Virus record (IMG/VR): IMGVR_UViG_3300037840_000064
Span: 1-63,006 of that record
Length of the DNA: 63,006 nt
Strand: one strand, 5' to 3'
Source: a virus
The notes below the pieces were generated by a model. It made no database searches, was not told the DNA's origin, and was given only the letters and a program-made list of their open reading frames with translations. Both the position numbers and the translations under genes were made by a program. Of this stretch, positions 13,310 to 34,613 are shown in pieces (within the stretch, counting starts at the first letter, position 1; each line of letters starts with the position of its first letter).

Positions 13310-13867
13310 CTAAGCATCGAAGCCAACATGAAACCTACAATACAGCGCACCGTTAAGTCCCACAGGCTCGGCTTTTTCCACAGCAAAGCCGAGAATCCGA
13401 AGAAACTTGATCGCCTGCGCATAGTCGGCAGCCACGAACGACTCAAGTCGCGGTCTTAACTTCCTCATGGCTGCCAACTCTGCTTTCGCTACCCTGACAA
13501 ACGAGAACGGCACAGACTCGATAGCAGCCGATGTATGCAACCACGGCACGCCAAGATCGGACAAAGGACTCACACCAGCGCGCAATCCTATTCCCAATCC
13601 CCAAATCGCCGCAACCTTGTCAGCCACCAACGCCGTCTTGCACATGATCGAATTACGATACGCCCGCCACAGTGCTTTCTTGACGCCAAATCCGAGATTG
13701 AGAATTTCCAATCGGTCCTGTTCGCGCAAGGACTCCGCGAGCGCATAGATGTGCGCGATCTCGGTCGGCTGGATAGTGTACGCTCTCGGCACGGATTGAT
13801 CGTCAAACGGTATCGCGCGGTGACCGTAGCCGTTCATCCCTATGGCCTGGTCACGCATTGGGGACAT
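13310..13867 (-). CDS. Internal virion protein, GNAT-like (T7 gp13-like position)
   Basis: Encodes up to 185 residues. The first ATG overlaps the end of the tail tube B gene; in-frame ATGs follow at 13858 and 13840, and the latter has a GGCCATAGGG context resembling the repeat. Size and order match acetyltransferase-fold internal proteins of podoviruses. Hydrophobic stretches (VAAIWGLGIGL, RILGFAVEKA) and a strand-helix pattern fit that fold, but no acetyl-CoA motif is clear. Confidence 0.75.
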   Translation of the reverse strand: MSPMRDQAIGMNGYGHRAIPFDDQSVPRAYTIQPTEIAHIYALAESLREQDRLEILNLGFGVKKALWRAYRNSIMCKTALVADKVAAIWGLGIGLRAGVSPLSDLGVPWLHTSAAIESVPFSFVRVAKAELAAMRKLRPRLESFVAADYAQAIKFLRILGFAVEKAEPVGLNGALYCRFHVGFDA

Positions 13868-16800
13868 CGCCTAATTCGAGTTCCGGGATGAACGCAAGGA
13901 TTTCAGCCGGGAGAGGCAGCAATTGCTGCACCGCGACCATACCCGGCGACGCCTGACGATCCGGGGTGGCAGTGGAATAATCGCCCGCGATCACTTCGTA
14001 TCGATCACCTGAGAACAATGGCACGGCGTTGCCCGCGCCCGCAAGCGCATTCGCTTCCGTGAGTTGCGTCATTAAATTCGGCGCCTGATTCCAGGGTATC
14101 TCGATCTGATTCTGTTGCTGCGCCGCAATCGGCTGATCCTGCCCGATCATGATGCCGCGCGTATTCGCCATCCGCACGGTCACACCCTGAATCCTCTTTC
14201 TCTTGCCCTGGATCGTTTCGCCCGGCATGTCGGCGTGCATCGATTGCGCCTGTGCGATGAACGGCAAGCCAATGAGAACCTGACTGGCGGGATTCGGCAG
14301 GGTCACCGAGCCATTGACCACCACAAGCCCCACGACCGGCGTCCCGTCGCAAAGGGCATTGACCGTCATCCCCTCCAAATGCTCCAAGCCCGATATGGAA
14401 CTCACAGGCTGCGTCAAGGTCCACGATCCCGCAACCGCCGGAACCGGCATATTGTTCGGATCGTTCGCAATCGTGGTCGCAATGGCTGCCTGCGGCGCCA
14501 CCTGTGCGGTTATCAGAGTCGGGGAGACGTAGAGCACGGACGTTCCAATTCCGCCTCCCACGCGCAACACAGCCCCGTTATTGCCCGATGAGAACACGGC
14601 GCCATCCGCCGTGAAGGTCACCGTATTATCGACCACAAGGGAGATATTGACCCCGGAGCCCGTCGCGTCCGTGACGATGATTCGCGGCAGCTTGTAATTG
14701 ACGCCAGGAGTGATGGTAAGGCCGGTTATGACGCCAGCAACAACGGTAAAGCCCGTCACCATCGCACCCGAACCCGTACCGGCGTCATCAACAATCTGCC
14801 CGGCCGGCGTCGCCGAATATCCACTCCCGCCGAGAATGATTGCGCCGAGCTGCACACCGCCGGCGCCATGCGCCGCGGACGCGACAAGGTTTGCATTCGG
14901 GGCCGGCTGCGGCAGCGACAAGGCGCTGTCGAGACAATAGGATTGCTCGACGTTTTGCCACAAGCGATTGTCCATGCGCTCCTGCATGTACATCCACTGG
15001 CCTCTGCCCGTCACGTACCGCTTGACGATGAAATAAGCCGCGTTCACGGGAGGCTCGGACGCAACAGCGACGGAAGCAACCAAACCGCAAGTATCGTGTC
15101 GCGCCCATCCACGCATTTCCTGTTCGGCGATATAGGTCAGAGAGAGCATCTTGCCGTCGTTACGCACGGCCCAGATCAGCCGGTACGGACTGAACGCGAG
15201 CGCCCATTGCACGAGATTCGTGTTCTGGAAAAGCTGACTGGACAAGAGCGTGATGTCCTGCCCCGTGTAGATATTGAAATAGAAATTGTAGTTGATCTCA
15301 TTCACAAACCCGTTGAGAGAATCGACGTAGAGCAGATTGTTTCGGATTCGTATCGGAGCAATCGTCGGCGACGATCCGATGCCTTCCTGCGCTTGCGCGT
15401 TCTGTTGCGATGGCGTGATAGGAGACCCCGCGCCAGCCGTTCCAGAGACTTGCCAGGTTGTGCCGCCCGTGAATGTAACCAAACCGCCCGGCATGGGCCG
15501 CATCCACTGAATACCGTCGATCTGTTCACCCCACGGCGTTCCCGTGATCGAATCGGAATCGATGGGAGGATCGGCAGAATCGAAATTAAGATACGATCCG
15601 GGTTGCGACATTTCGTAGGTATCGGGCGCCGTCAACGAATAGGCGTAAGTGCGCCGTTGCTGAAAATAAGCCGCGACTCCGGGGAAGGTCCCGGACTGAG
15701 GACCGACCGAGAGCGTTCCCGTCGCTCCCGCCCCGCTTCCACTGTCGGCAAAGACCGGCAGATCGGTTGGCAGATAACCCTGGCCTGGATTTTCTATATA
15801 GGTGCCAATCCAACCGCCGCTGCCCGTGAACGTTATGGAAGCAACATTGGTTGGGTATTCGCTATTGGTGCCATCCGTCACGGGACCGCCAGGGCTGCCG
15901 CCGCCCGATCCCGCGGATTGAATGAATTGCGTGCTACCAAATAATTGAACGTTTATAGTTGTAGAATTCGACGCAACGACAAGCCCCTGTGCCGTCGCGG
16001 TTCCTATTTGCTGCGTGACTGTTTCCCCATTCGAGAATGGGTTGCTCGCAAACGTAATTTGCTGGCCCGTGAGCGCAGCGCCGATAATCGGGACGCCCAC
16101 GAACCCTTTGCCCGTCGCGCTATTGATCGTAATGCTGGCAGTTGCCGCCGTATAGTTGGCCCCGATATTGGTCATCGGTATGTCGAGAATCTGTCCGGCA
16201 GCAAATGGATTCGTATGCAACGGCGGTGTGGTGGCGAAGTCGGCAATGATGTTGGTGTCCTGCCAACTTGTCGTGCGCGACGAACCGACATAACCGAACA
16301 ATTGCCCGGCAAAATTGCCGACATTGGTATAATCGGGCGCGGCCCGATAGATTTTATATTCCGACGCCCCCGGAACCGACGGCCAGCTTACCGTGTTGGT
16401 GCCAAACTGCCCGGCAATATCGACAACGGTTCCGACAACGCCTATGGTTGACGGTTGGCTTTCGTCTCCTGTCGCGCTGTCGATGGCCGTCACCACATAG
16501 CCATAAGCCGCCGGTCCCGGCCCGGTCGAATACGCCGTACCGACCACCGTACAGCTTCCCGGCGCCGCAATAGCTGACGCAAAAGACGGCTGTCCTATCG
16601 TCCAGTTGTTTGCAGCAAGTCTCGCCAATTCCTGCGGCGGATATTCGGTCTGCGTCGCCTGATTAACGAGAGTGAGCGACATTGTGTCGGCGCTTTGAAC
16701 GAATTTCAGATAGGGCAGATCGGCGGCGTGATAGGGAGTGACCAGCGTGTAAATGCGCGCTGCCGTGCCGCCTGCGGTAAAAGCGCCATAGGCTGTCGAA

Positions 16801-17303
16801 TTAACCGGAGTACCAAACACGTCCTGAATCGTGACGTTATTTCCGGCCACATTGCGCACGACCACAGTCCGCGCATTAAGCTGTGTCATTCCGCCGAGAC
16901 CAATCAGAAAAATCCAATCCCCCACGACATAATTGTGTCCTGGAATCGTGAGCACACAGGGATTGGCTTGCGACGCGCCAGTGATCACAAAAGCGGCCTC
17001 GGTGACATAGCCGCCGTTGGCGACCACGCGCATATATTGTTCGCCAAATTCCAGGATGTACGACTGAAAAATATTGAATGTGAATTGGATATTGCGCGGC
17101 GGATAGGAACTGGCGGAAGCCGCCTGTTTGCAGAATCCGACGAACGCAAGGCCGCCGCGACTCAGCAAGCCTCCTTTATAAGAGACAAAGAAATTTCGGG
17201 CGACCGAACAGGCTTTGTGCCAGCCCGCGAGGTCCAACCTTCCGTAGAGCGATGGCGAGACTTCGCCGCTGGAAAATGACGATTGGATGATCGGCGTGGC
17301 CAT
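13851..17303 (-). CDS. Tail tubular protein B (tail nozzle)
   Basis: Encodes 1150 residues. The N-terminus has the family hallmark SFSSGEVSPSLYGRLDLAGW followed by an ARNF and GGLLSRGG segment, the nozzle signature of T7 gp12-type proteins. T7 gp12 is about 800 residues, so this is long; the extra length is Gly/Thr/Asn-rich beta repeats in the middle and C-terminal half. It should form the tip of the short tail. It abuts the tail tube A gene and overlaps the next gene by 17 nt. Confidence 0.9.
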   Translation of the reverse strand: MATPIIQSSFSSGEVSPSLYGRLDLAGWHKACSVARNFFVSYKGGLLSRGGLAFVGFCKQAASASSYPPRNIQFTFNIFQSYILEFGEQYMRVVANGGYVTEAAFVITGASQANPCVLTIPGHNYVVGDWIFLIGLGGMTQLNARTVVVRNVAGNNVTIQDVFGTPVNSTAYGAFTAGGTAARIYTLVTPYHAADLPYLKFVQSADTMSLTLVNQATQTEYPPQELARLAANNWTIGQPSFASAIAAPGSCTVVGTAYSTGPGPAAYGYVVTAIDSATGDESQPSTIGVVGTVVDIAGQFGTNTVSWPSVPGASEYKIYRAAPDYTNVGNFAGQLFGYVGSSRTTSWQDTNIIADFATTPPLHTNPFAAGQILDIPMTNIGANYTAATASITINSATGKGFVGVPIIGAALTGQQITFASNPFSNGETVTQQIGTATAQGLVVASNSTTINVQLFGSTQFIQSAGSGGGSPGGPVTDGTNSEYPTNVASITFTGSGGWIGTYIENPGQGYLPTDLPVFADSGSGAGATGTLSVGPQSGTFPGVAAYFQQRRTYAYSLTAPDTYEMSQPGSYLNFDSADPPIDSDSITGTPWGEQIDGIQWMRPMPGGLVTFTGGTTWQVSGTAGAGSPITPSQQNAQAQEGIGSSPTIAPIRIRNNLLYVDSLNGFVNEINYNFYFNIYTGQDITLLSSQLFQNTNLVQWALAFSPYRLIWAVRNDGKMLSLTYIAEQEMRGWARHDTCGLVASVAVASEPPVNAAYFIVKRYVTGRGQWMYMQERMDNRLWQNVEQSYCLDSALSLPQPAPNANLVASAAHGAGGVQLGAIILGGSGYSATPAGQIVDDAGTGSGAMVTGFTVVAGVITGLTITPGVNYKLPRIIVTDATGSGVNISLVVDNTVTFTADGAVFSSGNNGAVLRVGGGIGTSVLYVSPTLITAQVAPQAAIATTIANDPNNMPVPAVAGSWTLTQPVSSISGLEHLEGMTVNALCDGTPVVGLVVVNGSVTLPNPASQVLIGLPFIAQAQSMHADMPGETIQGKRKRIQGVTVRMANTRGIMIGQDQPIAAQQQNQIEIPWNQAPNLMTQLTEANALAGAGNAVPLFSGDRYEVIAGDYSTATPDRQASPGMVAVQQLLPLPAEILAFIPELELGDVPNA

Positions 17304-25256: not shown

Positions 25257-26291
25257 TTAGACCACGCGGCTTTCGGTATCGAGAATCTGATCGACCACGC
25301 CGATTGCGATGTTGCGGAAGTTCACAATCGGGCGGCCGGCGTAATCTTCCGGACGCAACAATACATTTTTATCTCTGATGGCCTGGATGTCCATGTACTC
25401 CCGCGAGGTACGATCGCAGTAGAATTTCAGGCGGATCGAGGGAGCGACGCGATCCGGCGCGTCCGTCTTGACGATGCCGGAGACCATGCGGCCGGCGGTC
25501 GGAAGCCGGACAACCGACTTCGACATGATCGCGAAGATGTCCGGGGGAGTCGGGCCGGCGAGCCCTGCGGTCGTGGTGTCGAAGTTCGCCATGCGGATGA
25601 CGTAGCGCCAGTCCTCGATGGCGAGACCGCCGTTGCGCGAGAAGTAGGACGTATAGGCTTCGTAGCGCGCCGTGCCGTTCGACGTGAGGGCCGGAACCAA
25701 GTCGCCCTTGTTCTCGAAGATCAATCCGGCTTTCGTGCCATCCGGATAAATCTCGTAACAGGTCTGGTCGCCCCAGCCGATGAGCCAGATCGACGTATTC
25801 GACGATCCGGTGCCGCCGGCATCGAACACATTGACGCCGTTCGGGGTATTGGCGATTGCGGAGAAATACGTCGAGAAACCGGAGAACTGTTCCGGCGTCG
25901 TCCAGGCATTGCCGTAAACGAGGAAACCGGTCCACTGCTGGGACATGCCCTCCATATGGGCCACGTCCTCTTTCTCGCGGTTGGCGTTGGTATTGCCGCC
26001 AAGATCGGCGAGGCGCTTGTCGATCTGCGAGTAGGCGTCCAGCATTGCCATGCCGAACGTGATCTGCGCGGCACTCGACTTGGTGTAGCCGACGCCTTGG
26101 TTGAAGCGGCGCAGCGTGCCCTTGGGCAGCGCAGTGCGCAGCGTGACAACGTGGCCGGTTGTGAGGTTACCCTTGACCAGCGGGGCATCCTCGTCGATCT
26201 CGTTGCATTGAGACATCAATTCGGCCATGTCGGCGATCTTGCCGCCAGGGTCCATGCGACGGCCGACATCGGCCAGGGTCAAGGAAGCCAT
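25257..26291 (-). CDS. Major capsid protein (Bbp17-like)
   Basis: Encodes 344 residues. The sequence has the organisation of BPP-1-type HK97-fold coats: a short N-arm (MASLTLADVGRRMDPGG), an ALPKGTLRRFNQGVGYTKS segment, a central domain near YGNAWTTPEQFSGF and IWLIGWGDQTCYEIYP, and a C-terminal REYMDIQAIRDKNVLLRPED segment. Preceded by the scaffold gene and followed by the cement gene. Pieces of this protein recur elsewhere: its N-arm in the gene at 19923, its middle at 33384, and its C-terminal segment at 33073. Confidence 0.93.
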   Translation of the reverse strand: MASLTLADVGRRMDPGGKIADMAELMSQCNEIDEDAPLVKGNLTTGHVVTLRTALPKGTLRRFNQGVGYTKSSAAQITFGMAMLDAYSQIDKRLADLGGNTNANREKEDVAHMEGMSQQWTGFLVYGNAWTTPEQFSGFSTYFSAIANTPNGVNVFDAGGTGSSNTSIWLIGWGDQTCYEIYPDGTKAGLIFENKGDLVPALTSNGTARYEAYTSYFSRNGGLAIEDWRYVIRMANFDTTTAGLAGPTPPDIFAIMSKSVVRLPTAGRMVSGIVKTDAPDRVAPSIRLKFYCDRTSREYMDIQAIRDKNVLLRPEDYAGRPIVNFRNIAIGVVDQILDTESRVV

Positions 26292-31910: not shown

Positions 31911-32117
31911 CTACCTCCCAAGCGGATCGTACTCGGCTGTAAACATCGGCCGCCGCGGTTTCAATTCCTGTTCGAGCATCCACAGTTGCGGGCCATTCAA
32001 GCTCTGTAACGCCTTTGACGCAACCTCGCGAGTCACATGATCGCGGCGCATGATGTAGCCGATGGCGCGCTCGCGCTGCGCTTGATCGTCATCGGGTTTG
32101 GTAGGCGAGGGGATCAT
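31911..32117 (-). CDS. Small protein overlapping terminase 3' end
   Basis: Encodes 68 residues from the ATG at 32117 (MIPSPTKPDDDQ), overlapping the terminase end by 29 nt. Helical and charged, with a RRDHVTREVASKALQSLNG stretch. No family recognised; common arrangement after terminase in related phages is my impression only. Confidence 0.65.
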   Translation of the reverse strand: MIPSPTKPDDDQAQRERAIGYIMRRDHVTREVASKALQSLNGPQLWMLEQELKPRRPMFTAEYDPLGR

Positions 32118-32907
32118 ATTCCGCTTGCCATGAGACTTGCGATTTCCCGGTAGTCCACTGATCGGCCGGCCGCACGCACGCAACGCTTAACCCGGACATG
32201 ATGAGGTATCTCGTGTCGTCCATCAAGTGATCGGCCTGCCCATCCTTGATCCGACCATGCTCGTCGCGCTGGTAGAACCGATATTCCTTGATCCAGTTGA
32301 CCAGGGTCCGAAAGACTTTCAGGCGTCCGGTTGTGAGTCGTTGCCACACGGCGACGATACCCGATTCAGGTCCGGTCATCGTATTATCCGCAGGCGTCAA
32401 ATTCAAGCCCAGATCGTTGACGTAGATTGAAAACAACGCCTGACCGTCCTTTTGTCCACGTCCGCGCGCTGCCGGATCGATGACTCCGGGAATCCATAAG
32501 CCACGAGCACGAATTGCTGCGGCATGGATCGGCGGTTCGGCCTGCCCCCGATAGTGTTCGCCGTACAGATACACCACATCGTTGTCGCGGTCCCACGCGC
32601 CCCACAGCGCGGCGGTTCGCTTCCAGCCCACGTCGAGCGCATAGCACTGCGGCATCCAATCGGGGATGATGAACGGATCGCAGAGGATTTCGGATTCGGG
32701 TACCGGATAGACCGCGCCTTGACCGAGGGATGGTTTTCCGAGTGAGCGCGCTTCGAATTCGTGCGGCGGGATGCGGGATTTTTCTTCCGCGATCATTTCG
32801 GGGGTTAGGTGCGGAACGTCATTCCAGCCGGCCATCACGACAAAGCGGGAACGTTTGGCGATGACTTCTTCGGCTGGGCCGGATGAGAGCGAGGGAGCGT
32901 CAGTCAT
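32089..32907 (-). CDS. terL: Large terminase, C-terminal nuclease part (split gene)
   Basis: Encodes 272 residues from the ATG at 32907; an upstream start (32940) is possible. It holds the nuclease domain: RFVVMAGWNDVPHL, then YALDVGWKRTAALWGA (Asp 92), GVIDPAARGR (Asp 144) and DHLMDDTRYL (Asp near 226-231), so the metal-binding acids are all present. No ATPase motifs. The ATPase half is a separate gene at 33735-34613, and about 830 bp with three other frames lie between them. Added together the halves make a normal-length terminase with no obvious missing segment. Confidence 0.88.
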   Translation of the reverse strand: MTDAPSLSSGPAEEVIAKRSRFVVMAGWNDVPHLTPEMIAEEKSRIPPHEFEARSLGKPSLGQGAVYPVPESEILCDPFIIPDWMPQCYALDVGWKRTAALWGAWDRDNDVVYLYGEHYRGQAEPPIHAAAIRARGLWIPGVIDPAARGRGQKDGQALFSIYVNDLGLNLTPADNTMTGPESGIVAVWQRLTTGRLKVFRTLVNWIKEYRFYQRDEHGRIKDGQADHLMDDTRYLIMSGLSVACVRPADQWTTGKSQVSWQAEYDPLAYQTR

Positions 32908-33073
32908 GCAGTGACCGAAACAATAGCCACGTTTCATCACCGGGGCGCGATGCAGGATCGAATTTCATTTCGCACCAATGTCCGACCGGAATATCGTCAA
33001 GTTCGGGGCGATTACCGATGTGGATGCCGCATTGGAGGTTTCCCGCGCGTTCCCAATTCTCAAGACCAGCCAT
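32900..33073 (-). CDS. Small protein in terminase insert
   Basis: Encodes 57 residues. Its ATG overlaps the stop of the Tat-capsid gene (ATGA-type) and its stop overlaps the start of the terminase nuclease part. Sequence starts MAGLENWERAGNLQCGIHIG and ends LLFRSLHD. Soluble, with two Cys. Unknown; the double overlap argues that the insert is translated as one coupled unit. Confidence 0.5.
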   Translation of the reverse strand: MAGLENWERAGNLQCGIHIGNRPELDDIPVGHWCEMKFDPASRPGDETWLLFRSLHD

Positions 33074-33387
33074 CACCAAGCCTCGACTTGTAATCCGACG
33101 CGGCCATATGCAATCGCCTCAGGTGCGGTGATGATAAGAACGTTGCGAAAGTTCACGATTGGCTGGCCCGCATAGTCATCCGGGCGCAACAGTATGTTCA
33201 TATCGCGAATGGTTTTGATGTCCACAAATCGCCGAATTGTCCGATTGCTATAGAATATCGGCCGGATGACTGGCGTAAGCAGCGCTCGCACCGGCATCAA
33301 ATTTGCCGCCTTGACAAGGGCGGGTGCTGCGAGCGCTGCGCCAAGTCCAAACAAAAAACCACGACGAGAAGAAACGATTTTGCTCAT
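33073..33387 (-). CDS. Tat-signal protein carrying a coat-protein C-terminal segment
   Basis: Encodes 104 residues. Residues 7-28 are a Tat signal: SRRGFLFG followed by a hydrophobic Ala/Leu stretch ending LVKAANL. Residues 41-85 align without gaps to coat protein residues 286-330, with 29 of 45 identical by hand count; for example RDMNILLRPDDYAGQPIVNF here against RDKNVLLRPEDYAGRPIVNF in the coat. The rest of the coat fold is absent, so it cannot be a coat by itself. Overlaps both neighbours by 1-4 nt inside the split terminase. Predicted to be exported folded to the periplasm. Confidence 0.85.
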   Translation of the reverse strand: MSKIVSSRRGFLFGLGAALAAPALVKAANLMPVRALLTPVIRPIFYSNRTIRRFVDIKTIRDMNILLRPDDYAGQPIVNFRNVLIITAPEAIAYGRVGLQVEAW

Positions 33388-33734
33388 TGAGTTCCCGCCT
33401 CAAGTTTCGCCACTACCCGCCAGCCGCTAGAGTCCTCTAAGATGCTGTTGGATTCTTCAACCATTTGCGCAAACGCAGTCACGAATGGCTGGCCGTATTT
33501 TACCTCTAATTCCTCGAAAGTCGAACAGAGCGGCGGATCGATGCTTGGAATGGGATAAACATTGTAGCCGTTGACACCCGGAACTTCCGCCCAACTGATT
33601 CTCCACAAATTTCTCGAATCGCCGCCATCAAGCACATTCATGGCATTCAGTGCTTTAGCCTTCGGCAGTCCGATAAGCGCAATCGCTGCACTACCAAACA
33701 GCCAATTAAAAAACTTTCGCCGAGTTCCGTTCAT
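33384..33734 (-). CDS. Tat-signal protein resembling coat-protein middle
   Basis: Encodes 116 residues. The N-terminus has TRRKFFNWLFGSAAIALIGL, a Tat-like signal. Residues about 32-115 look like coat residues 152-237: NVLDGG with LWRISWAEV and YNVYP against NVFDAGG, IWLIGWGDQ and YEIYP, and a late WRVVAKL against WRYVIRM. Similarity is weaker than for its partner and needs a profile search. The ATG directly follows the TAG of the terminase ATPase half. Together with the next gene it covers most of the coat's C-terminal half as two exported pieces. Confidence 0.75.
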   Translation of the reverse strand: MNGTRRKFFNWLFGSAAIALIGLPKAKALNAMNVLDGGDSRNLWRISWAEVPGVNGYNVYPIPSIDPPLCSTFEELEVKYGQPFVTAFAQMVEESNSILEDSSGWRVVAKLEAGTQ

Positions 33735-34613
33735 CTAAAACTCCGATTCCCCCGGCAACCGCCCGCCAGGAAGGAACGCCTGCACTACATCCGACATGCC
33801 TTCGAGCGGCGTAAAGGTCAAGAGCGAGAGACCGCGTTTGGTCATGAGCCGAATCGACGCCTCAGTGTAAATTTCTAGGGGAGGTTCCTCGTCTCCCCAG
33901 AAAACGTCCTTTGCGGTTCCCTCGAACGATCCGCGTCCCTGCTCATACGATTTGATGCCGAGGCTCGACCAGCCACCAAATTGAGACTTGATCGCAGCCG
34001 TATCAATAAAATCCGGGATGCCGCGCTTCCAGGTTATGTCGCCGATGTCCTCTGCGGGAATCAGTCCCGTACCCGCGACGGTCTTAGATCGCCCGTTCCA
34101 TTTGACCGGACCAAACAACGTCTCGCGCTGAATAATATCGCGCGTCGTTTCGTTGGTCTTACCGGCGGCCCACGCCTCAATTGGTCGATCAAACCGATAG
34201 CCCGGCCACCAAACAGGATAGCGGCCAGTCAGATGCAGTGTAAGTTCGTAACCGCCGAGGCCAAAAGTTTTTCCTATTCGATTGGCGCACAGAGCTAATC
34301 TTTCACGATGCGGTGACCCATCGCAACCTTCGGGACACCATGTCTCGATTGGATCGTGCTGACCGCCTGCCGCAAAGAACGCCATGTGGCGGTCGTAAAG
34401 CTCGCGCCGCAATGGCCCATCATTAGGATAGAGGGTGTAGAGCCTACGGAACGGCGCCTGCTTCGCTATGTTCTCGCGAAGCTTCGTGCTCAATAATTTC
34501 CGGCCCTCCGGGGAGAGCGTCGAGAGCATCGGCAAGAGCGCGTTGATCTTCGACACTGAGACCTGCGAAGAAATTGTAATTATTCGTCGTCGCTGGAACT
34601 TTATCGGGTTCAT
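33735..34613 (-). CDS. terL: Large terminase, N-terminal ATPase part (split gene)
   Basis: Encodes up to 292 residues. Walker A is ALCANRIGKTFG (residues 108-118) and the Walker B/catalytic acids are VFWGDEEPP (237-245), followed by a motor-coupling LLTFTPLEGMSDVV. It stops with a TAG just after the ATPase core, at LPGESEF, where intact homologues continue to the nuclease. Start is uncertain because it overlaps the small terminase by up to 170 nt; GTG 34556 and ATG 34529 are alternatives. Trans-complementation with the nuclease half is inferred. Confidence 0.85.
   Translation of the reverse strand: MNPIKFQRRRIITISSQVSVSKINALLPMLSTLSPEGRKLLSTKLRENIAKQAPFRRLYTLYPNDGPLRRELYDRHMAFFAAGGQHDPIETWCPEGCDGSPHRERLALCANRIGKTFGLGGYELTLHLTGRYPVWWPGYRFDRPIEAWAAGKTNETTRDIIQRETLFGPVKWNGRSKTVAGTGLIPAEDIGDITWKRGIPDFIDTAAIKSQFGGWSSLGIKSYEQGRGSFEGTAKDVFWGDEEPPLEIYTEASIRLMTKRGLSLLTFTPLEGMSDVVQAFLPGGRLPGESEF

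Follow-up and report, generated by a model that had tools for sequence, protein, structure and literature searches.

Predicted Tat leaders joined to pieces of the phage's own virion proteins form a putative gene class that recurs across unrelated coat families

Why should a phage carry, inside its terminase locus, two small genes whose products appear to join a twin-arginine (Tat) leader to pieces of its own coat protein? The locus lies in a stretch of 63,006 nucleotides (positions 1 to 63,006 of the IMG/VR virus record IMGVR_UViG_3300037840_000064), which is called the window here; all window genes named below are on the minus strand. The frames P1 (33384..33734, 116 aa) and P2 (33073..33387, 104 aa) overlap by ATGA and form one operon inside a large terminase that is encoded by two genes. 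The ATPase half, a separate gene upstream of P1 (33735..34613, 292 aa), ends just before P1, and the nuclease half is a separate downstream gene (32089..32907, ATG at 32907; Terminase_6C in Pfam). Between P2 and the nuclease gene lies a 57-aa ORF (32900..33073) coupled to both, with its ATG overlapping the P2 stop (TGATG) and its stop overlapping the ATG of the nuclease gene; a search gave no known relative of this ORF. In related phages the large terminase is split likewise, and the variable cargo that separates the halves amounts to 0 to 6.7 kb; the split is therefore a trait of the phage group. Labeled by reading only, the cargo between the terminase halves (window 32089-34613; L005-L108) includes HNH-like frames in L024, L040, and L060, a deaminase-like and a transposase-like frame in L008, and methylase- and glycosyltransferase-like frames in L011. 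The P1/P2 region was identical in two further metagenome assemblies, L003 and L004 (0 differences over 900 bp), and since three assemblies agree in sequence, an assembly artefact was ruled out.

The source of the P2 piece is the major coat protein of the epsilon15/BPP-1 type encoded at 25257..26291 (PF20911 GP7, NF045672, phrog_212). The coat gene matched PF20911 with an E-value of 1e-90 (304 bits), and its structure model (pLDDT 69) had the BPP-1, Carin1, and epsilon15 capsids as best matches. P2 consists of a predicted Tat leader (SRRGFLFGLGAALAAPALVKA-ANLMPV), 49 aa homologous to residues 282-330 of the coat, and a unique tail of 19 aa. Residues 37-85 of P2 were identical to coat residues 282-330 at 30 of 49 positions (61%; BLASTP E 4e-20), and the coat profile detected P2 with an i-E of about 1e-15, so that the alignment to the coat claimed in the original prediction turned out to be stronger than stated there. 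In the comparison with the Pfam family GP7 capsid (PF20911), P2 reached 22.9 bits, below the cut-off of 27 bits, and only residues 23-85 were covered; it contains a homologous segment and is not a full member of the family. Its residues 37-85 correspond to the C-terminal part of the epsilon15/BPP-1 type coats (PDB 3j4u, 3j40, 8cjz), but P2 differs from these in spanning about one seventh of a coat and in having a predicted Tat leader in front.

At the DNA level, P2 and the coat gene were 65% identical with codon position 3 being least similar, and dN was 0.27 and dS 2.62. From these values we infer that P2 is an old copy of a coat segment held under protein-level constraint. A coat pseudogene or decaying duplicate was ruled out by the open frames and the leader, by matches in the coding frame, and by dN/dS ratios of 0.1-0.45 where defined. 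Chance similarity was ruled out as well, for P2 by the E-value of 4e-20 and for the class described below by the own-contig and own-coat-family comparisons. When modeled alone on a thin alignment, P2 gave a low-confidence structure (pLDDT 51, pTM 0.18), which does not support the notion that folded coat fragments are exported. A tblastn search with P1 and P2 in a collection of isolate phages gave no match.

A Tat signal sequence was recognized by its RR motif, by the uncharged and moderately hydrophobic stretch behind it, and by a cleavage site of the AxA type close to the N-terminus. By reading, both P1 (TRRKFFNWLFGSAAIALIGLPKAKA) and P2 begin with such a putative signal, with RR and an uncharged h-region, as the original prediction had proposed. 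The leader of P2 has the appearance of a textbook Tat leader and belongs to a leader family A-P-A-[LIV]-V-[RK]-A-x-[SN]-L-M-P; its score for Pfam TAT_signal was 15.5 bits, under the cut-off of 22.7. The viral collection was searched with a degenerate DNA pattern for A-P-A-[ILV]-V-x-A-[AS]-x-L-M-P, which represents the C-region and leaves out RR. This search identified 53 stretches in metagenomic phages, corresponding to 46 distinct proteins, and all 46 possessed RR at the correct distance even though the pattern had omitted it. The leader had no credible match in the isolate phage collection. Moreover, neither 10 prophage-bearing genomes nor 385 bacterial genomes of the class of G205, a set that may not include the host's, contained the pattern; within this sample, an acquisition of host Tat proteins by the phages was rejected. 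A subgroup of the Tat-leader proteins (L343, L351, L357, L377) has a common cysteine-containing mature part (PRCxxCFxxxGMCxxTGGPL).

The source of the P1 piece is less clear. Behind the predicted leader, P1 has a part weakly similar to coat residues 150-188 (BLASTP E 0.007). With the coat profile, full-length P1 scored 8.7 bits and the mature part 6.2 bits, a score reached by 0 of 2000 shuffles with a narrow margin; a second coat profile gave 3.8 bits (p about 0.003 from shuffles). A segment W..VPG..YNVY, present in homologues of the 1150-aa tail protein (13851..17303, stop-to-stop frame), fits P1 nearly as well as the coat does. Taken together, the P1 piece is probably derived from the coat, and P1 probably belongs to the same class as P2. 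Of the similarity to coat residues 152-237 that had been proposed for P1, the stretch 150-188 thus received weak support and the remainder none. The idea that P1 and P2 form a planned pair making up the larger share of the coat's C-terminal half was not supported, as P1 accounts for at most about 40 coat residues and other phages carry single, different pieces.

A search for the combination of a Tat leader and a coat fragment next to terminase genes of other phages had been suggested. The coat profile was run over the open frames of 270-335 loci, and about 150 virus records were scanned as a whole. Predicted Tat leaders were found in front of coat residues 292-336 in L104, where the gene adjoins a different terminase, and in front of residues 298-341 in G051, 204-243 in L200, 10-44 in L214, and 21-41 in L267. 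In G003 and G016, whose own coats are 99% identical to that of the window, the piece comprises coat residues of about 229-335 and the gene is located at another site. When the leader was defined strictly, it was present in 3 of 11 coat-fragment frames compared to 16 of 27,289 similar-sized frames (p 3e-8), and reading added further cases. A tree of the C-terminal piece, which is rough due to few columns and long branches, indicated at least three origins, and many related phages lack Tat-coat chimeras. Small frames with single coat pieces and without a Tat leader were also present (L094:5388-5684, which equals L009:8710-9006; L090:12931-13161; L214:1544-2068). A 233-aa frame without a Tat leader at L214:5322-6023 strings together motifs of the coat in their original order but without the spacers (coat 122-191 and 224-273; E 6e-15). 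The 317-aa coat gene at L094:8764-9717, near a contig end, diverges from the family at its C-terminus after MDIQA, either as a true variant or through an effect of the assembly end. A genome scan for prophages with a coat of the window type revealed none by simple patterns, and by profile only more distant coats.

The design extends to phages with unrelated coats. In a sample consisting of viral contigs from metagenomes, 14 of 56 mature parts matched a protein of their own contig by BLASTP below 1e-3, compared to 89 of 3192 comparisons with other contigs; E-values here and in the coding-frame test refer to a fixed search space. The matched proteins were major head proteins of phrog_9953, 334, 1357, 283 (P22 type), and 371 (Mu type), an SU10-type portal, and one 1020-aa protein with NHL repeats. 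When profiles of six coat families were applied (p ≤ 0.01), a match to the own family was seen for 21 of the 25 Tat proteins with an identified own coat, and a match to another family in 1 of 125 tests. Some of these 25 cases had entered the set by way of their coat similarity or had served to seed a profile; without them, the numbers were 9 of 13 for the own family and 0 of 65 for the others (Fisher p 4e-9). This mismatched-family control carries more weight than the shuffle controls, because the latter preserve composition only. Portal pieces behind a predicted Tat leader occurred in L382, L365, and L011, tail-collar pieces in L335 and L371, and tailspike-like pieces were also seen. A source was identified for about half of the leader proteins. 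For the short mature parts, PHROG scans gave little information in most cases, and a number of weak matches fell on added GS linkers.

Matches were confined to the coding frame except for one short repeat and for two of the coat matches, which were mirrored on the antisense strand; a random capture of DNA was rejected, as other reading frames had no independent matches. The dN/dS ratios were far below 1 (0.40/2.28 for L362, 0.39/2.68 for L382), and in 50 of 56 cases the upstream gene ended ≤ 40 nt away, in many with a 4-nt overlap, as expected for operon genes. On this basis, P2 is a member of a widespread class of proteins composed of a strongly kept putative Tat leader and a short piece of an own virion protein, mostly the major coat and sometimes a portal or tail protein. 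The core of the original prediction, Tat leaders on pieces of the own coat, therefore appears right for P2 and plausible for P1, and it seems to reach far beyond the phage of the window.

We know of no system that explains a gene class copying its own coat across unrelated coats, nor of any virion-protein piece in the Ltp-type lipoproteins. A search of the open-access literature found no such gene class. The Gol peptide of the T4 coat, acting with Lit, is an example of a short coat part serving as ligand of a host immune protein. For CapRel and related capsid sensors, short coat parts are likewise specific ligands of host immune proteins, but those sensors are triggered by the coat itself, whereas here a separate phage gene bears the coat piece behind a predicted export leader (PMC9712102). 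The Ltp-type prophage superinfection-exclusion proteins are, in the accessible part of the source, also small exported phage proteins, as predicted for P1 and P2, but they are surface lipoproteins (PMC3952083). Tab (tail assembly blocker) of Pseudomonas phage JBD26, a prophage protein that blocks the tail assembly of rivals, is, like P1 and P2, the small product of a gene located in the terminase region, and it targets virion proteins. It differs from them in hitting the tape measure protein of rivals and in having its own minus-strand promoter and an anti-Tab, and a Tat leader is not reported in the accessible part of that paper (PMC10884400). The tab genes are invariably located between the small and large terminase genes, with their own opposite-strand promoter, whereas P1 and P2 lie between the halves of the large terminase on the same strand and overlap. 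None of the families matched in phrogs, pfam, and ncbifam was named Tab.

What might such proteins do? A decoy role and an evasion of capsid sensing, both suggested in the original prediction, are possible. Our tentative preference, which we regard as possible, is that the class provides bait for capsid-sensing immunity. A P2-type protein would be made late, from the structural operon and alongside the real coat, and its coat-derived piece would bind a cytoplasmic protein recognizing that part of the coat without triggering it. The likeliest partner would be an immune sensor of the host, of the CapRel or Avs kinds, that responds to capsid, portal, or tail proteins. The Tat leader might then take the bait, together with the protein bound to it, to the inner membrane or outside by co-export, to the presumed benefit of the phage. 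Sensors of the CapRel and Avs kinds are cytoplasmic, whereas the destination of the mature part behind a Tat leader is the periplasm, and the hitchhiking that would reconcile the two is conjecture. We prefer the bait because host sensors recognize the coat directly, and the terminase or portal in other systems (PMC9712102), and because Tat can export bound partners by hitchhiking, as described in the accessible part of PMC4273604. The sequence comparisons that argue for it are the own-coat specificity over six families, the coding-frame constraint, the invariant RR, the operon position, the at least three changes on the tree, and the near relative G003 with its other piece at another site. The leader motif was also absent from the 385 sampled bacterial genomes. 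Swapping of pieces as host sensors change would account for different pieces and sites in near relatives, and the change among relatives together with the constraint within each suggests an arms race in preference to a core function. Tat favors folded cargo, however, and P2 alone was modeled without a confident fold. Furthermore, tail-collar proteins, the source in L335 and L371, are to our knowledge not sensor triggers, and about half of the leader proteins are without an identified source. The more specific claim, that in unrelated capsid families a Tat leader with an exchangeable self-virion piece captures capsid-sensing immune proteins and clears them from the cytoplasm via Tat, is correspondingly more doubtful.

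A rather doubtful alternative is an interference with assembly, in which the piece has a dominant-negative effect: it would bind to the matching interface and block or remove virion proteins of co-infecting or superinfecting relatives, with Tat pulling them to the membrane. The pieces do come from self-assembling virion proteins and are most similar to the own lineage, and the tab genes between the terminase genes are a precedent for P1 and P2 inside the terminase locus. Nevertheless, a piece of the own coat expressed from the own structural operon would harm own assembly unless countered, and no counter-protein was identified; for Tab, no report was found of a derivation from the tape measure protein that it targets. 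An action of the mature piece in the periplasm or after lysis, e.g., by titrating envelope factors or other binders of the virion surface, is the plain reading of a Tat leader and agrees with the tail-collar and tailspike-like pieces. We consider it unlikely, as the pieces stem from the whole length of the coat, some of them from regions that should not be exposed on the capsid, and we know of no periplasmic coat-binding factor. Quite unlikely, too, is a role in the own cycle, in which the late protein is targeted to the membrane, senses the supply of coat by binding its unassembled form, and thereby times lysis or regulates assembly: the genes are operonic with late genes and match the own coat and not an unrelated protein, but the fast turnover of pieces and sites in near relatives and the absence from many related phages are ill-suited to a core function. 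A neutral by-product, i.e., a mobile Tat-leader module recombined onto stray pieces of phage genes, would fit the conserved leader, the highly variable C-terminal part, and the half of the family without identified source, yet it is already strained by the restriction of matches to the coding frame, by dN/dS ratios well below 1, and by the strong bias to the single coat gene, and is very improbable.

The recurrence of the design would mean that there has been repeated selection for exported or membrane-targeted pieces of self-virion proteins. If these are bait, they would represent a novel kind of counter-immunity, and each phage's piece would mark the part of the coat that is read by host sensors; if they poison assembly, they would represent a novel mode of competition among phages. 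The combination of a Tat leader and a self-virion piece is small, is common among environmental phage contigs, and lends itself to direct tests.
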